Below, piece by piece: positions 695 to 30,076 of a stretch of 32,339 bases of DNA. This stretch comes from Fluviicola sp. (lineage in GTDB: Bacteria > Bacteroidota > Bacteroidia > Flavobacteriales_D > Crocinitomicaceae): contig JAJTEO010000053.1 in the NCBI GenBank assembly GCA_021300395.1, positions 1-32,339 on the forward strand. Reading direction: 5' to 3'. The notes under the pieces were generated by a model, which saw only the letters and a list, made by a program, of their open reading frames with translations, made no database searches and had not been told where the DNA came from. Position 1 is the first letter of the stretch; each line of letters opens with the position of its first letter. The position numbers and the translations under genes are program-made.

Positions 695-1588
695 TTATGC
701 TCTTTCTATAACAACAGCGTATCCTTGACCAAGTCCGATACACATTGTGACAAGTGCATAACGTTTATTTGTTTTTTGTAATTCAATCGCTGCTGATAGT
801 AATATTCTAGCGCCTGACATTCCAAGTGGGTGACCTAAAGCGATTGCACCTCCGTTTGGATTAATTCTTGGATCATTATCTTCTAAACCTAATTCACGTG
901 TACATGCAAGAACTTGAGCAGCAAACGCTTCGTTTAATTCTAAAATATCCATTTGGTCTAACGTTAAACCAGCTCTTTCAAGTGCTTTTTTAGATGCATA
1001 AACGGGACCGATTCCCATAATTCTTGGTTCAACACCTGCTATAGCTCCAGAAATAATTTTAGCTAATGGTTTTAAATTTTCCGGACGAGCAAACTCATCT
1101 TGTTGGAAAACGATTGGGTCTTTCTTTTTTTGTGGAATTGAAACTGGAATAATTTCTTCAGCGAATCGACCAGATTGAATAGCCTTTGCAGCTTTTTCTT
1201 GTGACCAAGCTGAGAATTTATCTTGTGAAGCTCTGTCGATTTTATACATTTCAGCTAAATTTTCAGCTGTACCTCCCATGCTGTCAACACCATATAATTC
1301 TTCCATTTTAGGGTTGATAAAACGCCATCCAAAAGATGAATCATACATTTGAGCATCACGACCGTATGCAGATGAAGTTTTTGAGATAACCCAAGGTCCA
1401 CGTGTCATATGTTCAACACCACCAGCGATGTAAATATCACCAGCACCATCTTTAATCGCTCTAGCAGCATTCATTGTAGCAGCCATTCCTGAAGCACACA
1501 ATCTATTCACAGTTTCACCTCCTAATTGGTAAGGTAAACCAGCTCTTTCAAGTGCTTTTTTAGATGCATAAACGGGACCGATTCCCAT
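695..1588 (-). CDS. Acetyl-CoA C-acyltransferase (thiolase), rearranged and probably non-functional
   Basis: Thiolases exchange an acyl group between CoA thioesters in beta-oxidation or related pathways. Recognisable parts are VNRLCASG with the nucleophilic Cys31, MTRGPWV, GWRFINPKMEELYGVDSM, GVEPRIMGIGP, LNEAFAAQ, the GHPLGMSGAR histidine block near residue 250 and C-terminal CIGLGQG. The usual length is about 390-400 residues; here it is 297. Two things are wrong. The normal N-terminal 80-odd residues before the Cys motif are absent and replaced by a copy of the gene's own internal segment, part of a 114-bp perfect repeat. Near residue 170, ARPE runs straight into NLKPLAK, skipping about 50 residues that normally include the conserved NASGxNDGA motif. 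The ATG at 1588 lies within the duplicated piece, so it is not the native start. Family certain; integrity not. Confidence 0.75.
   Translation of the reverse strand: MGIGPVYASKKALERAGLPYQLGGETVNRLCASGMAATMNAARAIKDGAGDIYIAGGVEHMTRGPWVISKTSSAYGRDAQMYDSSFGWRFINPKMEELYGVDSMGGTAENLAEMYKIDRASQDKFSAWSQEKAAKAIQSGRFAEEIIPVSIPQKKKDPIVFQQDEFARPENLKPLAKIISGAIAGVEPRIMGIGPVYASKKALERAGLTLDQMDILELNEAFAAQVLACTRELGLEDNDPRINPNGGAIALGHPLGMSGARILLSAAIELQKTNKRYALVTMCIGLGQGYAVVIERA
965..1078. repeat. 114-bp direct repeat, copy A (native position inside the thiolase)
   Basis: This segment is identical base for base to 1535-1648, offset by 570 bases (190 codons, so frame is kept). It encodes the thiolase stretch from NLKPLAK to ALERAGL and is followed by the expected TLDQMDILELNEAF, so this copy is in its natural place. 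Its upper edge at 1078 is also the point where about 50 conserved thiolase residues are missing. Confidence 0.92.
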
Positions 1589-21044: not shown

Positions 21045-22295
21045 TCATTCAAAATCTAGAATTTCAACATGTTCCCAGAAATGAGGATAACTTTTATTTA
21101 CAGCCTCTGCTTCTTCGATTTCAATTTCATCTTCTGCGAAAAAAGCAGCGATTGCTAAGCACATTGCAATTCGATGATCATTGTGAGATTTTGTTTTACC
21201 ACCTTCAATCGTTGTTTTTCCGTAAACATGCATAATATCTCCATCTAGTACTATATTTACTCCTAATTTTTCAAATTCTTCTTTTAAAACAACACCACGA
21301 TTACTTTCTTTATGTTCTAGTCGATTAACACCTTTTATTTCAGATTTCCCTTCTGTTAAAGCTGCAAATGTTACTAAGGCAGGGAATAAATCCGGGCAAT
21401 TTGTAGCATCAAATTTAAAAGGCTTACGATTTTCACCATTGATGTTGAATGTTTTTTCATGGAATTCAATCGAACAGTTAGCGGCTTCAAATGCTTTTAA
21501 AAGTGCTTTATCAGCTTGGTAACTAGCTAAGGTCAATCCTGTTAATTGAATATCCATCCCTAATGCTGATGCAACTAACCAATAACTTGCAGAGCTCCAG
21601 TCACTTTCAATGATATAATTACATGAAATGTATTTCTGTTTTCCTCCGATGATGAAATTCTCAAAATTTTGATTCTGAATAAAAATTCCGAATTGTTCCA
21701 AAGTATGAAGTGTCATTTGGACATATGGAAGACTATTTAAGTCTTGCACATTTACATATGTATCTTCGTTTGTCAATGGTAATCCCATTAACAGTCCAGA
21801 TAAATATTGAGAGCTATCACTTCCTTTGAAAGAAACTGAACCACCAGTTACTGGACCTTTTATTTTTAAAGGTAAATAGCCATTTGTAGATTGAACTTTG
21901 GCTCCAATTTGAGTTAAAACTTCTTCGAAAAAAGGCATCGGTCGTTTTAAAATAGAACCTTTCCCAATAATAGAATATTCTCCATTGTTTGCTGCTGCAA
22001 CAGAAGTGATTAATCGACATCCTAAACCACTTTCACCTACATTAATTTCAGCATTCGCAGGAAAGTTTTGAATACCTTTTATTGTCAATGAATTATCATT
22101 ATTTGAAACAATTGTTGCTCCTAAAGATTCAATCGTTTTTAGCATAGCCAATTCATCATGACTATCACCAACATTTTTCAATAAACTTTCTCCTTTTGCC
22201 AATCCTGCAGCTAATATAGCTCGTTGCGAATCGCTTTTTGAAGCGGGAATTTGAATAATCCCTTTTCTCTTTCCTGGTTTAATTGTAATATTCAT
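21045..22295 (-). CDS. aroA: 3-phosphoshikimate 1-carboxyvinyltransferase (EPSP synthase)
   Basis: Joins PEP to shikimate-3-phosphate, the sixth step of the shikimate pathway. 416 residues, somewhat shorter than the E. coli enzyme. Motifs: IPASKSDSQRAILAAGLAKG (shikimate-phosphate binding), VGESGLGCRLITSVAA (PEP-binding block), KGSDSSQYLSGLLMGLP, NCPDLFPALVTFAALTEG with the catalytic Asp, RLEHKESNRG (the Lys/Glu of the PEP site; D of the usual KE(S/T)DR is Asn, a form also seen in other Bacteroidota) and SHNDHRIAMCLAIA. The C-terminus has VNKSYPHFWE. It lies 105 bases after the DAHP synthase-chorismate mutase gene, with a REP-like palindrome between, so it probably shares that leader and attenuator. 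Confidence 0.93.
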   Translation of the reverse strand: MNITIKPGKRKGIIQIPASKSDSQRAILAAGLAKGESLLKNVGDSHDELAMLKTIESLGATIVSNNDNSLTIKGIQNFPANAEINVGESGLGCRLITSVAAANNGEYSIIGKGSILKRPMPFFEEVLTQIGAKVQSTNGYLPLKIKGPVTGGSVSFKGSDSSQYLSGLLMGLPLTNEDTYVNVQDLNSLPYVQMTLHTLEQFGIFIQNQNFENFIIGGKQKYISCNYIIESDWSSASYWLVASALGMDIQLTGLTLASYQADKALLKAFEAANCSIEFHEKTFNINGENRKPFKFDATNCPDLFPALVTFAALTEGKSEIKGVNRLEHKESNRGVVLKEEFEKLGVNIVLDGDIMHVYGKTTIEGGKTKSHNDHRIAMCLAIAAFFAEDEIEIEEAEAVNKSYPHFWEHVEILDFE

Positions 22296-22400: not shown

Positions 22401-23330
22401 CTATTTCGAATTCATCACTTTTGTCTGATGTCTAATCGATTCTTGATGCATTGCATCCATCATTTGGCGAATAAACATTTTTGAAAGCTTGTAATCATCT
22501 GATTTGTCTAATCGATGATTGATTATTTTTGCCCAATGTTCTTGTTGAAGAATCATGATGTTGTTTTCACGTTTGAATTTACCAACTTCTTCACTTAAAA
22601 CCATTCTAGCTGAAAATAAATCGAATAAACGATCATCTAAATTGTTAATTTTTTCTCTTATGTCAGACAGAAAATCTGTATCGCAAGAACTAATATCATT
22701 TGAACGTAAAATCAAATTATCAATGATTGATTTTAATTGATCGGGAGTAACTTGTTGGGCTGCATCTGACCAAGCTTTATCTGGATTTGGATGTGTTTCA
22801 ATCATCAATCCATCAAAATTTAAATCCAATGCTTTTTGTGATACTTCCAACAATAAATTTCTATTTCCAGTAATGTGACTTGGATCGCAAATAATAGGAA
22901 GATTTGGTAATCGTTCTCTCAATCCAATTGCTATTTCCCAAGTTGGTACATTTCTATATTTGGGATGTTTATAAATCGAAAATCCTCTATGAATCGCTGC
23001 TAAATCAGTGATTCCTGCTTTTTCAAAACGCTCGAAAGCACCGATCCATAATTCTAAATCAGGATTGACAGGATTTTTAATTAAAACAGGAATTTTTGTT
23101 CCCTGTAAAGCATCCGCAATTTCTTGAACAGCAAAAGGATTGACAGTTGTTCGTGCACCAATCCAAAGCACATCAATTCCAGCTTTTAAAGCTTGTTCTA
23201 CGTGAATTTTATTAGCAACCTCCGTAGAAACAGGAAGTCCAGTTTCTTTACCATCTGGAGTTTCAGCACTACATGGTCCTGTTATCAAAAAAGGACGATT
23301 AGTATTTTTTATTGTTTCCTGTAAGTTCAT
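22401..23330 (-). CDS. DAHP synthase-chorismate mutase fusion with an apparent internal deletion
   Basis: The N-terminal part is a type I-beta DAHP synthase (PEP + erythrose-4-phosphate, first shikimate step); residues about 218-305 are an AroQ-type chorismate mutase (REKINNLDDRLFDLFSARM, VGKFKRENNI, MHQESIRHQ), a fusion typical of Bacteroidota. Recognised: LITGPCSAET, STEVANKIHVEQALKAGIDVLWIGARTTVNPF, LIKNPVNPDLELWIG, AIHRGFS, ICDPSHITGNR and MIETHPNPDKAWSDAAQQ. But SAETPDGK runs into ETGLPVSTEVAN at about residues 22-34, while relatives have about 45-50 more residues there, including AGIWKPRTRPNSFEG, which binds PEP and the sugar phosphate. Length is 309 against about 355-360. As read, synthase activity would be lost. 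A leader peptide and terminator precede it. Confidence 0.88.
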   Translation of the reverse strand: MNLQETIKNTNRPFLITGPCSAETPDGKETGLPVSTEVANKIHVEQALKAGIDVLWIGARTTVNPFAVQEIADALQGTKIPVLIKNPVNPDLELWIGAFERFEKAGITDLAAIHRGFSIYKHPKYRNVPTWEIAIGLRERLPNLPIICDPSHITGNRNLLLEVSQKALDLNFDGLMIETHPNPDKAWSDAAQQVTPDQLKSIIDNLILRSNDISSCDTDFLSDIREKINNLDDRLFDLFSARMVLSEEVGKFKRENNIMILQQEHWAKIINHRLDKSDDYKLSKMFIRQMMDAMHQESIRHQTKVMNSK

Positions 23331-23345
23331 CTTAATATTTTTAAA

Positions 23346-23384
23346 AATAAAAAACCCGTTTCAACTCAAAGTACGAAACGGGTT
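23346..23384 (-). terminator. Attenuator terminator before the DAHP synthase gene
   Basis: On the minus strand AACCCGTTTC (23375-23384 side) pairs perfectly over 10 bp with GAAACGGGTT (23353-23362 side) around a 12-base loop, followed by a T run. It lies between the leader peptide (ending 23416) and the ATG at 23330, inside the 5' leader, so it must act as a conditional terminator. Confidence 0.85.
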
Positions 23385-23415
23385 CAAATCTATATATAGC
23401 ATTTTCCGAACGCAC

Positions 23416-23463
23416 TCAGCGAGTTTTAAACCACCACCAAAAATTTTGTTTCGAAAAATTCAT
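23416..23463 (-). CDS. Aromatic leader peptide of the aro genes (FWWWF)
   Basis: ATG 23463 to TGA 23416 encodes MNFSKQNFWWWFKTR. Three adjacent Trp codons are flanked by Phe codons, far beyond chance in 15 residues. It starts about 14 bases after the predicted transcription start and is followed by a strong terminator before the DAHP synthase-chorismate mutase gene. The layout is that of a transcription attenuator: ribosomes slow at Trp (and perhaps Phe) codons when charged tRNA is scarce and the terminator is avoided. Possible pairing partners include CGAAAC at codons 4-5 with GTTTCG in the terminator arm. A clear antiterminator was not proven by eye. Confidence 0.7.
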   Translation of the reverse strand: MNFSKQNFWWWFKTR

Positions 23464-23481
23464 TGTCTCAATTTGTTGGTA

Positions 23482-23489
23482 CAAAGATA
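23482..23489 (-). promoter_or_regulatory. -7 box TATCTTTG of the aro leader
   Basis: Exact TAnnTTTG match on the minus strand, ending 18 bases before the leader ATG at 23463. Predicted start of transcription near 23477. No good -33 TTG seen. Confidence 0.5.
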
Positions 23490-23512
23490 AATGAAAAAAA
23501 TTGAAATTAAAT

Positions 23513-23544
23513 TTTGTTTTATGAAAATAATTTCTAAATCTTTG
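23513..23544 (+). promoter_or_regulatory. Promoter of the trp operon (TTTG-N20-AATCTTTG)
   Basis: -33 element TTTG at 23513-23516, 20-base spacer, and -7 element AATCTTTG at 23537-23544 (seven of eight to TAnnTTTG). Spacing fits the Bacteroidota rule of 19-21. Transcription would begin near 23549-23552, practically at the leader ATG 23551. Confidence 0.5.
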
Positions 23545-23550
23545 TCGCAG

Positions 23551-23619
23551 ATGAAAACGAAATATACAAATACAAATTTTTGGTGGCGCTCAACTAACAG
23601 TTGGTGTGCGTGGCGTTAA
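23551..23619 (+). CDS. trpL: trp operon leader peptide
   Basis: ATG 23551 to TAA 23617-23619 encodes 22 residues: MKTKYTNTNFWWR then STNSWCAWR, with Trp codons at 23581, 23584, 23602 and 23611. Four Trp in 22 codons directly before trpE and upstream of a perfect terminator make this an attenuation leader, matching the description of the Bacteroid-trp RNA class. An in-frame ATG at 23521 would add ten residues but overlaps the -7 element, so 23551 is preferred; the mRNA may then be nearly leaderless. The end of the frame (GCGTGGCGTT, 23608-23617) can pair imperfectly with the terminator arm AACGGCTTGT, a possible antiterminator that a ribosome reaching the stop would cover. Confidence 0.8.
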   Translation: MKTKYTNTNFWWRSTNSWCAWR

Positions 23620-23644
23620 TTTGTAATTCTTTATAAATATTTTT

Positions 23645-23679
23645 AAACGGCTTGTCACACGACAAGCCGTTTTTTTTTT
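23645..23679 (+). terminator. Attenuator terminator before trpE
   Basis: Perfect 12-bp stem AAACGGCTTGTC / GACAAGCCGTTT with loop ACAC and an unbroken T run, 26 bases after the leader stop and 22 bases before the trpE ATG. Strong intrinsic terminator in the 5' leader. Confidence 0.92.
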
Positions 23680-23700
23680 CACTTCCTTTTTATTTTTTTT

Positions 23701-25116
23701 ATGATTTATTCAAAAATTACTCCGTTCAATGCGGATGTATACACTCCGGTGGAAATTTATCTTTCTTTAAGAAACCATTATCGCAAGACATGCTTATTAG
23801 AAAGCAATGAATATCAGTCTAGAAGCAACAGTAAATCTTTTATTGGAGTTAATCCGGTTATTGAGATAATGGTTAAAAATCAAGTAGTTTCAATTGATGT
23901 TGATGGAGTTTGTTCGGAAGAAATATTGAATCAAAATCAAGATTCAGTTGCTCAAATTCAGCAAATATTAGAACGATTTAAATTCAATAATCCTGAAATT
24001 GAAGGAAATGGTTTCTTTGGAAGATTTGGATTTGAATTTGCTTTGTTGACTGAAAAACATATTGAAAAAGCAAAAAGTGATCTAGAAATTCCTGACATTC
24101 ATTTTTTTGTTTTTGAGCAAATAATTGTCATAGATCATTTTACTTCAAATGGTTATGTCATCTCAAATAGTTTTAATTCAGAAGAGTTGAAAGCAATGGG
24201 GATAACTCATTTACTTCAACGTAAACCATTTACTGAATTGCCATTTGAAACAATAGGAAATGAAAAATCAGATTTTACGGATGAAGAATTCGCTCGTATA
24301 GTGACAGATGCAAAATCTTCTTGTATGCGAGGAGATGTTTTTCAGTTAGTCGTTTCAAATAGATTTCAGCAATCTTTTTTTGGGGATGATTTTCAAGTGT
24401 ATAGACAATTAAGAAGATTAAATCCATCACCTTATTTGTTCTATTTTGATTTCGAAAGTTATCGTTTATTCGGTTCTTCTCCTGAAGCACAATTAATCGT
24501 GAAAAAAGGAAAAGCAGAAATTCATCCAATAGCAGGAACGGTTTCAAAATCAGGTGATAAATCTGTAGATGATGAGCAGATTCATTTTTTAGTAAATGAT
24601 GAAAAAGAAAATGCGGAACATACGATGTTGGTTGATTTAGCTAGAAATGATTTAAGCAAAGATTGTAAAAATGTCAAAGTGGAGATTTATAAAGAAATTC
24701 AACACTTTAGTCATGTCATTCACTTAGTGTCAAAAGTGACAGGTGAAGTTGATTCTACTGAATCGTTAAAACTTATCAGTAATTCATTTCCAGCAGGTAC
24801 ACTTTCTGGAACGCCAAAGCCAAAAGCATTGGAATTAATCGCTAAAACTGAAAAGTCAACTAGGGATTTTTATGGTGGAGCTGTTGGATTAATCGCTTCA
24901 AATGGTGATGTCAATATGGCAATTGTCATTCGAAGTATTTTGAGTAAGAATAATATTATGAATTATAGAGCAGGTGCGGGTGTAGTCATTAATTCAATAG
25001 TTGAAAATGAAGTGAAAGAAGTACATCATAAACTTAGAGCTGTTCGAACAGCTATTTCAAAAGCAGATTCGCAAAAAGAAGTAATTGAAAATTTAAAAAT
25101 CGTATCAAATATTTAA
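23701..25116 (+). CDS. trpE: Anthranilate synthase component I
   Basis: Converts chorismate plus ammonia or glutamine-derived ammonia to anthranilate, first step of the Trp branch. 471 residues. The N-terminal feedback-site motif LLES is at 32-35 and NPSPYLFYF at about 240, both elements of Trp inhibition. Chorismate-binding blocks: MRGDVFQLVVSNRF, FGSSPEAQ, HPIAGT, NAEHTMLVDLARNDL, HVIHLVSKVTGEV, SFPAGTLSGTPKPKALELI, FYGGAVGLI and YRAGAGVVINS. First gene of trpEGDCFBA, behind the leader peptide and attenuator. Intact. Confidence 0.95.
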   Translation: MIYSKITPFNADVYTPVEIYLSLRNHYRKTCLLESNEYQSRSNSKSFIGVNPVIEIMVKNQVVSIDVDGVCSEEILNQNQDSVAQIQQILERFKFNNPEIEGNGFFGRFGFEFALLTEKHIEKAKSDLEIPDIHFFVFEQIIVIDHFTSNGYVISNSFNSEELKAMGITHLLQRKPFTELPFETIGNEKSDFTDEEFARIVTDAKSSCMRGDVFQLVVSNRFQQSFFGDDFQVYRQLRRLNPSPYLFYFDFESYRLFGSSPEAQLIVKKGKAEIHPIAGTVSKSGDKSVDDEQIHFLVNDEKENAEHTMLVDLARNDLSKDCKNVKVEIYKEIQHFSHVIHLVSKVTGEVDSTESLKLISNSFPAGTLSGTPKPKALELIAKTEKSTRDFYGGAVGLIASNGDVNMAIVIRSILSKNNIMNYRAGAGVVINSIVENEVKEVHHKLRAVRTAISKADSQKEVIENLKIVSNI

Positions 25117-25120
25117 TAAA

Positions 25121-25693
25121 ATGAAAATAGCTGTAATTGATAACTATGATTCTTTTGTTTATAACATCATTCGTTATGTGAAAGAATCGAATGTTGACGA
25201 AGTGATTGTGATGCGAAACAATGAAGTTGATTACGAAGTATTGGAGAAATGTGATGCCATCTTATTGTCTCCAGGTCCTGGTATTCCATCAGAAGCAGGT
25301 GATTTATTGAAAATAATTCGACAATATGGATCTTCAAAAAATATATTAGGGGTTTGTTTAGGGCATCAAGCAATTGCAGAGGTTTATGGTGGGAAACTAG
25401 AGCAATGTAAAGAACCAATTCATGGAAAAGCTTCTTTGATCCAGCATCAACAAATTGATTCCATTTTTGATTCAATTCCTCAAGAATTTGAAGTAGGACG
25501 ATATCATAGCTGGAAAATTAATTCAAATGTCCCAAATGAGTTGGTGGTTACTGCTCAAACGAAGGATGGAGAAATCATGGCAATCAAACATCGTGACTTA
25601 AATATCAGAGGAGTTCAATTTCATCCAGAATCAATATTGACTCCACAAGGGCGAACAATGATTGAGAATTGGGTTTCGTCAGTTAATAATTAA
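25121..25693 (+). CDS. trpG: Anthranilate synthase component II (glutamine amidotransferase)
   Basis: Hydrolyses glutamine and passes ammonia to TrpE. 190 residues, normal for a stand-alone class I glutamine amidotransferase: IDNYDSFVYN, LLSPGPGIPSEAG, GVCLGHQAI with nucleophile Cys79, and QFHPESILT with His168 and Glu170 completing the triad. It starts four bases after trpE. It may also serve aminodeoxychorismate synthase, as TrpG does in some bacteria, but nothing here shows that. Confidence 0.94.
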   Translation: MKIAVIDNYDSFVYNIIRYVKESNVDEVIVMRNNEVDYEVLEKCDAILLSPGPGIPSEAGDLLKIIRQYGSSKNILGVCLGHQAIAEVYGGKLEQCKEPIHGKASLIQHQQIDSIFDSIPQEFEVGRYHSWKINSNVPNELVVTAQTKDGEIMAIKHRDLNIRGVQFHPESILTPQGRTMIENWVSSVNN

Positions 25694-25728
25694 TAATTAA
25701 TAGTTGAAAGTTATAAGTTCAAAATAAA

Positions 25729-26706
25729 ATGAAAACACTGATACAAAAAGTACTAAATAATCAATCACTTTCTTCTCAGGAAGCATCAGAAATTATCCAT
25801 GCAATTGCTGAGGAAAAGATGAATGATGCTCAAGTTGTAGCGTTAATGATTGGTTTACAAATGAAAGGTTTGAGTTTGGATGAAATTGAAGGATTTCGAA
25901 ATGCGTTACTAAATCTTGCTTTAAAAATTGAATTAGATGGAACTAATGCAATTGATTTATGTGGAACAGGTGGAGATGGAAAAGATACATTCAATATTTC
26001 TACGACTACATCATTTGTTCTGGCAGCAATGGGAAATAAAGTGATCAAGCATGGTAATTATGGTGTAAGTTCATCTTGTGGATCTTCCAATGTTTTAGAA
26101 GCTTTAGGATACGTATTTACACATGATGAGAAAGAGTTAAACGAGCAATTAACGAAAAACAATATTTGCTTTTTACATGCACCTTTATTTCATCCAACGT
26201 TAAAAAAAGTAAGTCATTTGAGAAGAGATTTGGGGCTTAGAACTTTTTTCAATTCACTTGGGCCGTTGGTAAACCCTGTTCAACCAGCTTTTCAATTAAC
26301 GGGAACTTATGATTTAGAATTAGCGAAAATCTACCAGCACTTATTGAAAAAGAATAGAACTGATTTTAGAGTAGTTTTTGGAATGGATGGCTATGATGAA
26401 ATTACATTAACAGAACAAACACGCGTTTTAGGATTGAAATCAGATGAAGTGATCAATGCAAATTTGTTTGAATTGAAAAGTGTAAATGCGAGTACTTTGA
26501 AAGCTGGAAAAACGGTCGATGAATCGGCTCAAATTGTGAAAACAATTTTGAAAGGAGAAGGATCAGCTGAACAAACAAATGTAGTTGCAGTTAATACAGC
26601 AATCGCTTTAGAATGTTTTCATCCAACGACTTCGAAAATAGAATTATTTAATGAATCACTTTCATTTATTAAAAGTGGTCAAGCAGCAAAAACATTTAAA
26701 TTTTAG
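25729..26706 (+). CDS. trpD: Anthranilate phosphoribosyltransferase
   Basis: Transfers the ribose-phosphate of PRPP to anthranilate. 325 residues. The PRPP and anthranilate sites are clear: DLCGTGGDGKDTFNIST (GTGGD), KHGNYGVSSSCGSSNVLEALG, HLRRDLGLRTFFNSLGPLVNPVQ and GMDGYDEIT. A short helical N-terminal domain (MKTLIQKVLNNQSLS) is typical. A 35-base AT-rich spacer separates it from trpG and five bases from trpC. Confidence 0.95.
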   Translation: MKTLIQKVLNNQSLSSQEASEIIHAIAEEKMNDAQVVALMIGLQMKGLSLDEIEGFRNALLNLALKIELDGTNAIDLCGTGGDGKDTFNISTTTSFVLAAMGNKVIKHGNYGVSSSCGSSNVLEALGYVFTHDEKELNEQLTKNNICFLHAPLFHPTLKKVSHLRRDLGLRTFFNSLGPLVNPVQPAFQLTGTYDLELAKIYQHLLKKNRTDFRVVFGMDGYDEITLTEQTRVLGLKSDEVINANLFELKSVNASTLKAGKTVDESAQIVKTILKGEGSAEQTNVVAVNTAIALECFHPTTSKIELFNESLSFIKSGQAAKTFKF

Positions 26707-26711
26707 AAAAT

Positions 26712-27491
26712 ATGGGAACAATTTTAGATACAATTATAGATCAAAAAAGAAAGGAAGTTGAATTGTTAAGATCAACATTCACGATTAAAGATTTTGAACA
26801 GAGTGTTTATTTCGATAAAAAGACAATTTCGCTTAAAGAAAAATTAGAAAATCAATTTGGAGTTATAGCTGAGTTCAAGAGAAAATCACCAAGTGCTGGT
26901 ATTATTAATAGCGAACTAGATCCTGTTGAAATTAGTAAAATCTATGAGCAAAATGGAGCAAGTGCAATTTCAGTGTTAACAGATTCAAGCTTTTTTGGAG
27001 CAAAAGAAACGGATATCACAGAAATTAGAAAAACGGTTCAAATTCCAATTTTGCGTAAAGATTTTATTATTGATGAAATTCAATTATTCCAAGCGAAAGC
27101 GATGGGAGCGGATGTCGTTTTATTGATAGCAGAAGCATTAACGGAGCAAGAAATTTTACATTTTACAATTTTAGCTCAAGGTTTAGGATTAGAGGTGATT
27201 TGTGAGTTTCATGAAAAGAATCAGTTAAATAAAATTTCAGATTTGGTCGATATCATTGGTGTAAATAATCGAAACTTAAAAACACAAACGACAACAATCC
27301 AAACTTCTTTAGATGTGATTGATTTCTTGCCAAAAGATAAATTAATCATCACGGAATCAGGAATTAAATCAAAAGAAGATTTAGAATTATTAACTGAAGC
27401 AGGATATAATGGCGCTTTGATAGGAGAAAGTATTTTGAAAAGCAGTTCTATAAAGAGTTTTATTAATGAATTAAACTATTCAAAGGCATGA
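26712..27491 (+). CDS. trpC: Indole-3-glycerol phosphate synthase
   Basis: Closes the indole ring from CdRP with loss of CO2 and water. 259 residues, a single TIM barrel not fused to TrpF. Motifs: VIAEFKRKSPSAG (catalytic Lys), ISVLTDSSFFGA, ILRKDFIIDEIQ (second Lys and Asp), GVNNRNLKT and ITESGIKS. The stop overlaps the trpF start by four bases (ATGA), indicating translational coupling. Confidence 0.95.
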   Translation: MGTILDTIIDQKRKEVELLRSTFTIKDFEQSVYFDKKTISLKEKLENQFGVIAEFKRKSPSAGIINSELDPVEISKIYEQNGASAISVLTDSSFFGAKETDITEIRKTVQIPILRKDFIIDEIQLFQAKAMGADVVLLIAEALTEQEILHFTILAQGLGLEVICEFHEKNQLNKISDLVDIIGVNNRNLKTQTTTIQTSLDVIDFLPKDKLIITESGIKSKEDLELLTEAGYNGALIGESILKSSSIKSFINELNYSKA

Positions 27492-28123
27492 AAATAAAAG
27501 TTTGTGGATTAAAAGATCAAGAACAGATTAATGTTTTAGATCAGAATAATCAAATTGAATTTTTAGGATTTATTTTTTACTCAAAATCAAAACGATTTTT
27601 TGATCAATTACCCATTTTTACAAAAAATAGTAAGCGAGTAGGAGTTTTTGTAAATGAGGAAATAGATAAAATCATTGATATAGCTTCGTTTCATCAGCTC
27701 GATTACATTCAATTACATGGAGATGAAGATGTTGTTTATTGTAGAAAGCTGATGAATCAAATCATGAAGACCAATCAAAAGTTAAGTATCATAAAAGCGT
27801 TTGGAGTCGATGATAATTTTGATTTTAAACAATTGACGGAATTTGAAGCTTTGGTTGACTATTTTTTGTTTGATACAAAAACGGATGCATATGGTGGTTC
27901 AGGTAAAGTTTTTAATTGGGAAATATTAAATCATTATCAAGGGAATATTCCATTTTTATTGAGTGGAGGGATAAAAATTGAAATGGGAGATGAAATAAAA
28001 AATATAGATCACAAACGTTTCATTGGGATTGATATCAATAGTGGTTTTGAAATTAATCCAGGGAATAAAAATGTAGATAAAATAGATGAATTTGTAGAAA
28101 GTATTACAACTGTTTTAAATTAA
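27488..28123 (+). CDS. trpF: Phosphoribosylanthranilate isomerase
   Basis: Amadori rearrangement of PRA to CdRP. 211 residues: KVCGLKDQ with the catalytic Cys near residue 6, FLGFIFYSKSKRF, IQLHGDED, FLFDTKTDAYGGSGKVFNW (catalytic Asp) and LLSGGI, GIDINSGFE. Starts inside the trpC stop codon and ends five bases before trpB. Confidence 0.94.
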   Translation: MKIKVCGLKDQEQINVLDQNNQIEFLGFIFYSKSKRFFDQLPIFTKNSKRVGVFVNEEIDKIIDIASFHQLDYIQLHGDEDVVYCRKLMNQIMKTNQKLSIIKAFGVDDNFDFKQLTEFEALVDYFLFDTKTDAYGGSGKVFNWEILNHYQGNIPFLLSGGIKIEMGDEIKNIDHKRFIGIDINSGFEINPGNKNVDKIDEFVESITTVLN

Positions 28124-28128
28124 GAAAG

Positions 28129-29316
28129 ATGATAAGTGAAAAAAAATATACAGCAGTAGATGATTTAGGCTTTTATGGTGAATTTGGTGGTGCTTTTGTG
28201 CCAGAATTGCTAAGAGATAATTTAGAAGAATTAAGTTTGAATTATAATTTATTAAAGGAAGATGAAGCGTTTCAGAATGAATTTGTTTCATTGTTAAAAC
28301 ATTATGTTGGTCGTCCTTCTCCTTTGTATTTATCTCAAAAGTTGACGAATGAATATCAATGTCCAATTTTTTTGAAACGTGAAGATTTAAATCATACGGG
28401 GTCTCATAAAATCAACAATGCTATTGGTCAGATTTTATTAGCGAAAAAAATGGGTAAAACCGAAATTATTGCTGAAACAGGAGCAGGTCAACATGGTGTA
28501 GCTACAGCAACGGTTTGTGCGCTGATGGATATGAAATGTATTGTTTTTATGGGTGAAAAAGATATTGAGCGTCAAGCGCCTAATGTACAACGAATGAAAT
28601 ATTTGGGAGCTGAAGTGGTTCCAGCAACTTCGGGTAGTAAAACATTGAAAGATGCTACAAATGAGGCAATTCGTTATTGGATTAATCATACAAATGCCTA
28701 TTATTTAATAGGAAGTGTTGTTGGGCCGCATCCTTATCCAGCAATGGTCGCATTATTTCAATCGGTTATTTCAAAAGAAATTAAAACACAATTAAAAGAA
28801 CAAACGGGATCTGAAAATCCAACTAAAATCGTTGCCTGCGTAGGCGGAGGAAGTAATGCAGCTGGAGCATTTTTTGAATATTATGATAACGAAGAAGTTG
28901 AGTTAATTGCCGTAGAAGCAGGTGGTATGGGTGTTGATTCTGGTCACACAGCAGCAACTTCAGCAGTTGGAAATCCAGGTGTTCTTCATGGAAGTTTAAC
29001 ATTGTTAATGCAAGATGAATACGGACAAGTAATTGAGCCTTATTCAATTTCAGCTGGTTTAGATTATCCAGGAATTGGTCCTTTACATGCACATACAATT
29101 CAAGTAGGAAGAACAAAAAGTATTTCCGTTACAGATGATGAAGCGTTAAAAGCGGCAAAGAAATTAGCTGTTTATGAGGGAATTATTCCAGCATTAGAAA
29201 GTGCACATGCCATTGCGGCCTTGGATAAAATTGATTTTTCTTCGAATGATGTTGTTGTAATCAATTTATCGGGAAGAGGAGATAAGGATATGGAAACGTA
29301 TTTGAATTTTGAATGA
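28129..29316 (+). CDS. trpB: Tryptophan synthase beta chain
   Basis: Condenses indole with serine to give tryptophan, using PLP. 395 residues: GEFGGAFVPE, RPSPLY, LKREDLNHTGSHKINNAIG with PLP lysine Lys94, AETGAGQHGVATAT, CVGGGSNAAG (phosphate-binding loop), GVDSGHTAAT, EPYSISAGLDYPGIGPLHAH and LSGRGDKDM. All conserved blocks of the main TrpB1 type are present. Its stop codon overlaps the region where the alternative early trpA start would lie. Confidence 0.96.
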   Translation: MISEKKYTAVDDLGFYGEFGGAFVPELLRDNLEELSLNYNLLKEDEAFQNEFVSLLKHYVGRPSPLYLSQKLTNEYQCPIFLKREDLNHTGSHKINNAIGQILLAKKMGKTEIIAETGAGQHGVATATVCALMDMKCIVFMGEKDIERQAPNVQRMKYLGAEVVPATSGSKTLKDATNEAIRYWINHTNAYYLIGSVVGPHPYPAMVALFQSVISKEIKTQLKEQTGSENPTKIVACVGGGSNAAGAFFEYYDNEEVELIAVEAGGMGVDSGHTAATSAVGNPGVLHGSLTLLMQDEYGQVIEPYSISAGLDYPGIGPLHAHTIQVGRTKSISVTDDEALKAAKKLAVYEGIIPALESAHAIAALDKIDFSSNDVVVINLSGRGDKDMETYLNFE

Positions 29317-29338
29317 TGAATTAAAATTGAAAATTAAA

Positions 29339-30076
29339 ATGAACAGATTTATAAAAGATAAAAAGCAGCTAAGTATTTTCATTACAGCAGGTTTTCCTAC
29401 TTTGGATAGCACTGCAGCTCAAATACTAGAATTACAATCGAAAGGAATAGATTTCATTGAAGTTGGAATTCCATTTTCAGATCCGATGGCAGATGGTGTT
29501 GTCATTCAAGAATCAAGTTCAATAGCACTTGCAAACGGAATGAATATGGATGTTTTATTTGATCAATTAGATTCGATTAAAAATCAAGTTCAGATTCCAT
29601 TAGTTTTGATGGGATATTTGAATCCAGTTTTGCAATATGGTTTGGAGAAATTTTTAAAACGATGTAAGGATTTAAAAATAGCCTCTGTCATATTGCCTGA
29701 TATGAGTATTGAAATTTATGAGCGTTTTTATAAAGAATTATTTGAGAAATATGAGGTTTCAATGACTTTTTTAATAACTCCAACCACTTCGAATGAACGA
29801 ATTCAAAAAGTTGTAAATGCATCTTCTAAAAGCTTCATTTATTTGGTTTCTCAAACAAGTATTACGGGTAAGAAACAAGCATTGGATTCAAGTCTATTTG
29901 AACGTTATTCTGAAATAAAGCAATTGTGTAAAGGTGTACCTGTTATGCTTGGATTTGGAATTTCCACTAAAGAAGATGTTGAAAATGCGCATCTGTCATG
30001 TGATGGAGCAATTATTGGATCAGCTTACATTCGAAGTTTGATGGAGAAAAAGGATTTAATAGCAGAATTGGTGTAA
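29339..30076 (+). CDS. trpA: Tryptophan synthase alpha chain
   Basis: Releases indole from indole-3-glycerol phosphate and channels it to TrpB. From ATG 29339 it has 245 residues; catalytic Glu41 (DFIEVGIPFSDP) and Asp52 (MADG) have the usual spacing of 11. Also LMGYLNPVLQYG, ILPDMSIEIY, FLITPTTSNERI, YLVSQTSITG and GFGISTKEDV. The earlier in-frame ATG at 29309 overlaps the trpB stop and would add residues encoded by AT-rich filler, with no counterpart in the family, so 29339 is preferred. Last gene of the operon. Confidence 0.94.
   Translation: MNRFIKDKKQLSIFITAGFPTLDSTAAQILELQSKGIDFIEVGIPFSDPMADGVVIQESSSIALANGMNMDVLFDQLDSIKNQVQIPLVLMGYLNPVLQYGLEKFLKRCKDLKIASVILPDMSIEIYERFYKELFEKYEVSMTFLITPTTSNERIQKVVNASSKSFIYLVSQTSITGKKQALDSSLFERYSEIKQLCKGVPVMLGFGISTKEDVENAHLSCDGAIIGSAYIRSLMEKKDLIAELV

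Follow-up and report, generated by a model that had tools for sequence, protein, structure and literature searches.

A candidate tryptophan-codon attenuator upstream of DAHP synthase-chorismate mutase in Crocinitomicaceae

The stretch of DNA analysed here (the window, 32,339 nucleotides from Fluviicola sp.) carries aromatic biosynthesis genes on both strands. On the minus strand lies the gene for a DAHP synthase-chorismate mutase (DAHPS-CM, isozyme 1; 22401..23330), recognised by the Pfam domains DAHP_synth_1 and CM_2, followed by that for EPSP synthase (aroA; 21045..22295, by Pfam), which presumably comes second in the transcription unit. Back to back with the leader of these aro genes, the trpEGDCFBA operon (23701..30076) runs divergently on the plus strand; it was recognised from its ORFs, with trpE identified by Pfam and the names trpG to trpA assigned by us from the translations. 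This operon has a leader of its own, in which an ORF at 23551..23619 (plus) encodes MKTKYTNTNFWWRSTNSWCAWR followed by a stop codon, and a terminator is seen in the sequence at 23645..23679 (plus). The ORF lies inside a match to the Rfam family RF01692 (23531-23656, plus), and at gathering threshold this trp side is the only part of the window with an Rfam match.

The window DAHPS-CM lacks 138 bp (46 codons, including the KPRTRP stretch, to which we ascribe a catalytic role) that are found in L003 and L004. The gap is in frame, with its junction at 23253/23252, and the relatives compared are 99% identical elsewhere. Either an assembly error or a genuine deletion could account for it; the former has to be considered because an ORF at 695-1588 (minus) of the same window, presumably a thiolase, contains a duplicated piece of at least 54 nt, with MGIGPVYASKKALERAG occurring twice, which has the look of a fault in assembly or of a rearrangement. 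Two adjacent TPR-like ORFs on the plus strand (1840-2415 and 2421-2729, together 1840-2729) appear by eye to be parts of a single gene interrupted by a frameshift.

The initial annotation placed aroA under the control of the aro leader as well. This stands in so far as aroA comes next after DAHPS-CM in the window and in its genus, but no aroA was found in the leader-bearing loci L019, L020 and the 17-kb L194. Thus aroA does not always belong to the unit.

The leader had been described as an ORF with three Trp codons between Phe codons, flanked by a -7 box and a strong terminator, and these parts were found exactly so. On the minus strand, the ORF (23416..23463) runs from the ATG at 23463 to the TGA at 23416 and encodes MNFSKQNFWWWFKTR; its assignment rests on the sequence and on the leaders of relatives. 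Three consecutive UGG codons (TGGTGGTGG; 23431..23439, minus) begin 21 nt before the stop codon. The putative -7 box TATCTTTG (23489-23482, minus) fits the Bacteroidota consensus TAnnTTTG, as quoted in PMC9723704 and PMC7366714, and ends 18 nt 5' of the leader ATG. The intrinsic terminator (23384-23349, minus) consists, by sequence, of a 10-bp stem AACCCGTTTC/GAAACGGGTT and a U-run (AACCCGTTTC ... GAAACGGGTTTTTT). The 15-mer TTTTGGTGGTGGTTT occurs a single time in the 2.52-Mb assembly. TGGTGGTGG alone occurs 58 times in this assembly compared with 50 for the reversed control; hence DNA coding for WWW is in itself not rare, and the evidential weight is to be sought in the combination of leader features and their conservation, not in the WWW run alone.

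To what extent this combination recurs was seen in the relatives. DAHPS matches were obtained in 112 of 119 relatives, and upstream regions were read at 109 of the 127 match places and at 51 loci of named genomes, giving 137 unique regions after removal of duplicates. A strong terminator ending 8-150 nt 5' of DAHPS was present in 40 of them. A leader was counted when an ORF starting with ATG had two or more Trp within six codons and ended no more than 60 nt from the terminator stem. Such Trp leaders precede 24 of the 40 terminators, whereas 0.19 are expected when the sequence 5' of the terminators is dinucleotide-shuffled; the 24 amount to about 19 independent sequences, as L002-L006 are near-identical and likewise L012/L083. 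This rules out a chance ORF.

The leader peptides diverge freely between relatives while Trp is kept (MNFSTQLFWWWYITQ, MFFNSSDIWWLLNLN, MITNNAYNWLWNDLT, MQRLSTNKFHWNWLF and MMNRTQISWSWGALI), and 14 of the 24 leaders have their first Trp codon 21 nt before the stop codon (range 15-27). The search of relatives for a conserved peptide and terminator, which the initial annotation had proposed, has therefore found leader peptide, Trp codons and terminator again upstream of DAHPS. Among the order-level loci retrieved none has a leader with at least two Trp by this rule; L166 and L179 pass a looser rule only, in stretches resembling tRNA genes. At L097 a terminator and a short ORF are present, the latter free of Trp. 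Leaders with a single Trp (L087, L119, L203, L206 and L208) should respond weakly. The motif WWRST is common to the aro leaders of L037/L038 (genus g12) and the trp leader of the window, which is suggestive of an aro leader that may descend from a copied trp leader.

A pairing that would compete with the terminator was found next to the leader stop codon. The segment at and just after this codon, (T)AAGTGCG..TTCGG, is complementary to CCG..CGTACTT in the 5' arm and loop of the terminator. According to pairing and folding tests, the 5' half of this antiterminator in the window is GAGTGCG-TT-CGG (23406..23417, minus), overlapping the leader stop codon, and the 3' half CCG-TTT-CGTACTT (23369..23381, minus), overlapping the terminator 5' arm and loop. 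In an alignment of few sequences (11, several of them close relatives) 89.9% of the cells of this helix were paired, compared with 29-52% in slid versions. Double-sided changes were seen in three cells at two pairs, for example as AAGTGCA/TGTACTT in L007 and as the GGCCG/CGGTC form in L019 and L020. Two of 500 shuffles attained the percentage paired and the covariation score, and 16 of 500 had as many pairs with double changes; further pair types were not above the shuffles (464 of 500 as high). The terminator helix was paired in 95.5% of cells and showed no double changes in the 11 sequences.

Duplex tests against shuffled stop-codon segments gave a combined Fisher p of 6.5e-6 in the first set (18 groups, one row per near-identical pair) and of 1.1e-4 in the follow-up set (15 leaders). 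Most single loci were not significant: p was below 0.05 in 9 of 24 loci of the first set and in 3 of 16 of the follow-up, and above 0.5 for L037, L038, L088, L199 and L200.

When the window leader was folded with the ribosome at the first, second or third Trp codon and the 3' arm of the terminator not yet made, the antiterminator was predicted at -16.4, -14.1 and -11.8 kcal/mol, respectively. With the ribosome on the stop codon at this stage, the antiterminator stretch was unstructured. The complete leader had the terminator as its minimum-energy fold whether the ribosome was stalled or not (-21.9, -20.1 and -20.0 kcal/mol for the three stalls). Thus the antiterminator can win only kinetically, as is the case in other attenuators. 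The folding comparison with a stalled ribosome had also been proposed in advance, and the alternative structures indeed depend on the position of the ribosome.

The locus has the parts of an attenuator: a short leader ORF whose regulatory codons specify the amino acid produced, an intrinsic terminator (by sequence) between this ORF and the first structural gene, and a competing antiterminator, supported by the group tests, whose 5' half in the window is predicted to be masked with the ribosome at the stop codon and free with it at the Trp codons. Together with the conservation and the co-occurrence with trpB described below, the leader, its Trp codons, the terminator and the alternative pairing, as read from sequence, argue for a ribosome-mediated transcription attenuator of the trpL type, by which charged tRNA-Trp very probably controls the Trp-branch DAHPS-CM and, in the window, probably also aroA. 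That the first shikimate enzyme has a Trp-codon attenuator of its own had been claimed from the window alone; recurrence in relatives and the position-dependent folds lend this claim support.

Transcription would start about 10-20 nt before the leader ATG, judging from the -7 box. With tRNA-Trp charged, the ribosome would proceed to the stop codon and cover GAGTGCG..CGG, leaving the 5' arm of the terminator free; the hairpin 23384-23349 would then form and transcription would end. With charged tRNA-Trp in short supply, the ribosome would stall at the UGG codons, 21-15 nt upstream of the stop codon, and leave the stop-codon segment exposed. Before synthesis of the 3' arm is complete, this segment could pair with CCG..CGTACTT and so pre-empt the terminator. 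By the ensuing read-through, DAHPS-CM would be made alongside the divergent, separately attenuated trp operon.

Several genomes possess a second DAHPS-CM, about 48% identical to the first, which lies beside prephenate dehydratase and often asnA. (The names tsaB, 'rr' and, in some loci, asnA are our own or were transferred by homology between loci.) Upstream of this (asnA)-pheA-DAHPS2 operon a Phe-rich leader and a terminator are found (MKINNTYFFFNNNYMT, MTQNFNFFFFSFFHKCD, MSNTNFNNFFFGPPP and others). The sample comprised 17 loci from 17 genomes, 13 of them with a terminator in view, and a leader with a cluster of F/Y codons lies at the start of an operon gene in all 13 (for example upstream of 7585, minus, in L186); shuffles lead one to expect 0.83, Phe codons being common in AT-rich DNA. 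In L262 a further terminator, before asnA, has no such leader. Of the remaining four loci, L252, L256 and L258 end at a contig edge and L254 has no terminator. A leader with at least two Trp was not found before the second isozyme in any of the 17 loci, and at gathering threshold no Rfam family matches the Phe-leader loci L186 and L249.

In relatives with both isozymes the Phe-rich leader would call up the second DAHPS-CM, together with prephenate dehydratase. Hence the two isozymes appear to be separately addressed by tRNA-Trp and tRNA-Phe, each called by the amino acid of its branch. The window assembly (83% complete) yielded no second DAHPS and no prephenate dehydratase match; for this organism the Trp/Phe pairing is therefore taken from its relatives, which include G009 and G010, 99% identical to it in DAHPS-CM.

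These observations also bear on the suggestion, made in the initial annotation, that tRNA-Phe might act on the aro leader as well. The Phe codons flanking WWW would then be a second input of the same switch. Phe does flank WWW in the window and its closest relatives; across the family, however, it is the Trp codons that are conserved and not the Phe codons. Of 36 Trp leaders, thirteen are free of Phe codons, eight have neither F nor Y, and an F/Y cluster is present in two. As the Phe-rich leaders precede the other isozyme instead, dual sensing by the aro leader is improbable and the suggestion was not borne out.

If the aro leader responds to tRNA-Trp, it should be found in genomes that make tryptophan. 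In a genome-wide search of the first set, 16 of 23 genomes with trpB had the leader, compared with 2 of 40 without trpB (p 7.5e-8, ignoring kinship). One of these two, G001, has a trp operon reduced to a 191-aa N-terminal fragment of trpE and a remnant of trpA, with both leaders kept (L192, 6841-7595); the other, G041, is 84% complete, and trpB is present in G022, a genome of the same genus. By the rule, 7 of the 23 trpB-containing genomes of the first set and 7 of the 27 such loci of the follow-up are leaderless. Some of the former seven loci may be isozyme 2, to judge from their 55-60% identity. Leaderless G071 has a lone 54% trpB match and no trpE in 11 kb (L268), and L205, from the follow-up, has by eye a single-Trp leader and a terminator farther upstream.

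For the follow-up, 29 further genomes with trpB were found among 240 family genomes, and DAHPS could be read in 27. The rule of at least two Trp was carried over unchanged; the single-Trp class had been added after the first set. A leader with at least two Trp and a terminator was present in 16 of 27 trpB-containing loci and in none of 24 without trpB; single-Trp leaders added four in the former group and one in the latter. Loci already seen made up 8 of the 27 and 4 of the 24, and without them the leader was present in 11 of 19 versus 0 of 20 (p 4.5e-5). Phylogenetically independent pairs differing in trpB, drawn from a rapidly built tree with 80 DAHPS-CM proteins, on average differed in the leader in the same direction in 6.4 cases, in the opposite direction in none and not at all in 7.6 (median p 0.031); counting leaders with at least one Trp, the figures were 8.2, 0 and 5.8 (p 0.008). 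The cleanest sister pair is L010, which has neither trpB nor leader, and L011, which has both. A trpB match was present in only 54 of the 240 family genomes, many of which are incomplete, and loss of tryptophan synthesis therefore seems common in the family.

Where a leader-bearing locus has enough flanking sequence, trpE mostly adjoins DAHPS in divergent orientation; many genomes without trp have the order rr-tsaB-DAHPS-aroA instead. This usual co-occurrence of leader and adjacent trpE could also be read such that the leader is a passenger of the arrival of the trp operon beside DAHPS, with no regulatory role of its own. Yet the aro leader is present in L038 (G022) and L044 (G052) though trpE, with its own Trp-rich leader, lies on another contig (L265 and L266, respectively), so that trp adjacency is not the whole cause of the leader. 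Given also that its pairing shows some covariation, a mere passenger is hardly credible. In L025, L031 and L101 trpE is adjacent and no aro leader is present.

Two further explanations concern the peptide and its translation. The nascent peptide might bind free Trp and stall the ribosome, as in TnaC, instead of sensing uncharged tRNA-Trp; in both systems a regulated terminator is preceded by a short peptide that contains Trp. However, nascent-chain arrest requires fixed residues, whereas the non-Trp residues of the aro leaders vary widely between genera, and by eye no conserved arrest residues other than Trp were seen. As the gene is biosynthetic, the logic would moreover be inverted, which makes arrest of this kind very unlikely. 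It is equally doubtful that the short ORF acts on translation, by coupling or reinitiation at DAHPS with the hairpin incidental: a role in reinitiation has been proposed for leader genes near structural genes, with a peak at 11-14 bp in Bacteroidetes (PMC4833913), but 85 nt separate the leader stop codon from the DAHPS start in the window, and 209 nt in L003, outside this range, and a U-run hairpin stands in between (in the 24 counted leaders as part of the counting rule).

We hence favor the tRNA-Trp attenuator. DAHP synthase sets the entry of carbon into all aromatic synthesis, and E.coli splits its control between isozymes by the DNA-binding repressors TrpR and TyrR. The same division of labour is here apparently written in leader-peptide codons. 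The Trp repressor domain PF01371 had no match in 36 family genomes (of 59 searched), while the E.coli and B.subtilis controls were matched; in 2 of 23 order-level genomes weak matches with internal stops were found, one of them above the cut-off. It is rather likely, though less so than the attenuator itself, that two parallel codon-addressed attenuators govern aromatic entry in Crocinitomicaceae, the trp-branch isozyme being addressed by UGG codons and the one beside prephenate dehydratase by UUU/UUC codons, that the two together would do the job of TrpR and TyrR in E.coli without TrpR, and that the Trp half has been lost repeatedly together with Trp prototrophy. The family offers a natural series in which the trp operon is present, unlinked, decaying or gone, with the switch following suit, so that comparison offers a test of how the attenuator is tied to physiology.

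Attenuation of trp operons is a classical mechanism. With the E.coli-type trp leader (trpL, RF00513) the aro leader shares a short ORF with tandem Trp codons, a stop-proximal antiterminator half, an intrinsic terminator and a biosynthetic target. Unlike trpL it would control DAHPS-CM and not anthranilate synthase, it is very short and no pause hairpin is shown; in the Rfam search of the window RF00513 had no match on the aro-leader strand. A T-box was rejected, as no such family was matched at gathering threshold in the window or at E<=1 over 23250-23800. The Bacteroid-trp leader RNA (RF01692, listed in PMC2864571) belongs to the same phylum, concerns the same amino acid and is the leader of the divergent trp operon in the window. 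The aro leader differs from it in peptide, spacing and terminator and had no match to it even at E<=1. In a set of eight loci RF01692 was matched twice (L197 and L199), both times on the trp side, and membership of the aro leader in this family was rejected, the trp side alone being matched in the window.

Similar in target is the aroR leader of the DAHP synthase gene aroF in C.glutamicum, which has Phe-Tyr-Phe codons and responds to Phe (Neshat et al. 2014, as cited in PMC11802643 and PMC4046766). It is likewise leader-peptide attenuation of a DAHP synthase gene, but through Phe instead of Trp and in a different phylum, and the passages citing it mention no second isozyme with a Trp leader. 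In Flavobacterium psychrophilum pheA is preceded by a conserved 5' element that matches no Rfam family, and there are clues to leader peptides before amino-acid operons (PMC9723704). The pheA element is perhaps the counterpart of the Phe-rich leader before (asnA)-pheA-DAHPS2; the section on it gives no peptide sequence and no Trp leader of DAHPS-CM. In the open-access library searched, we found no Trp leader on DAHPS-CM in Bacteroidota and no case of two isozymes with a Trp leader on one and a Phe leader on the other. The mechanism is thus classical, and it is the target, DAHPS-CM, and the Trp/Phe pairing that are without match in this library. Leader-peptide control in Bacteroidota would thereby reach beyond the trp branch into the common trunk of aromatic synthesis.
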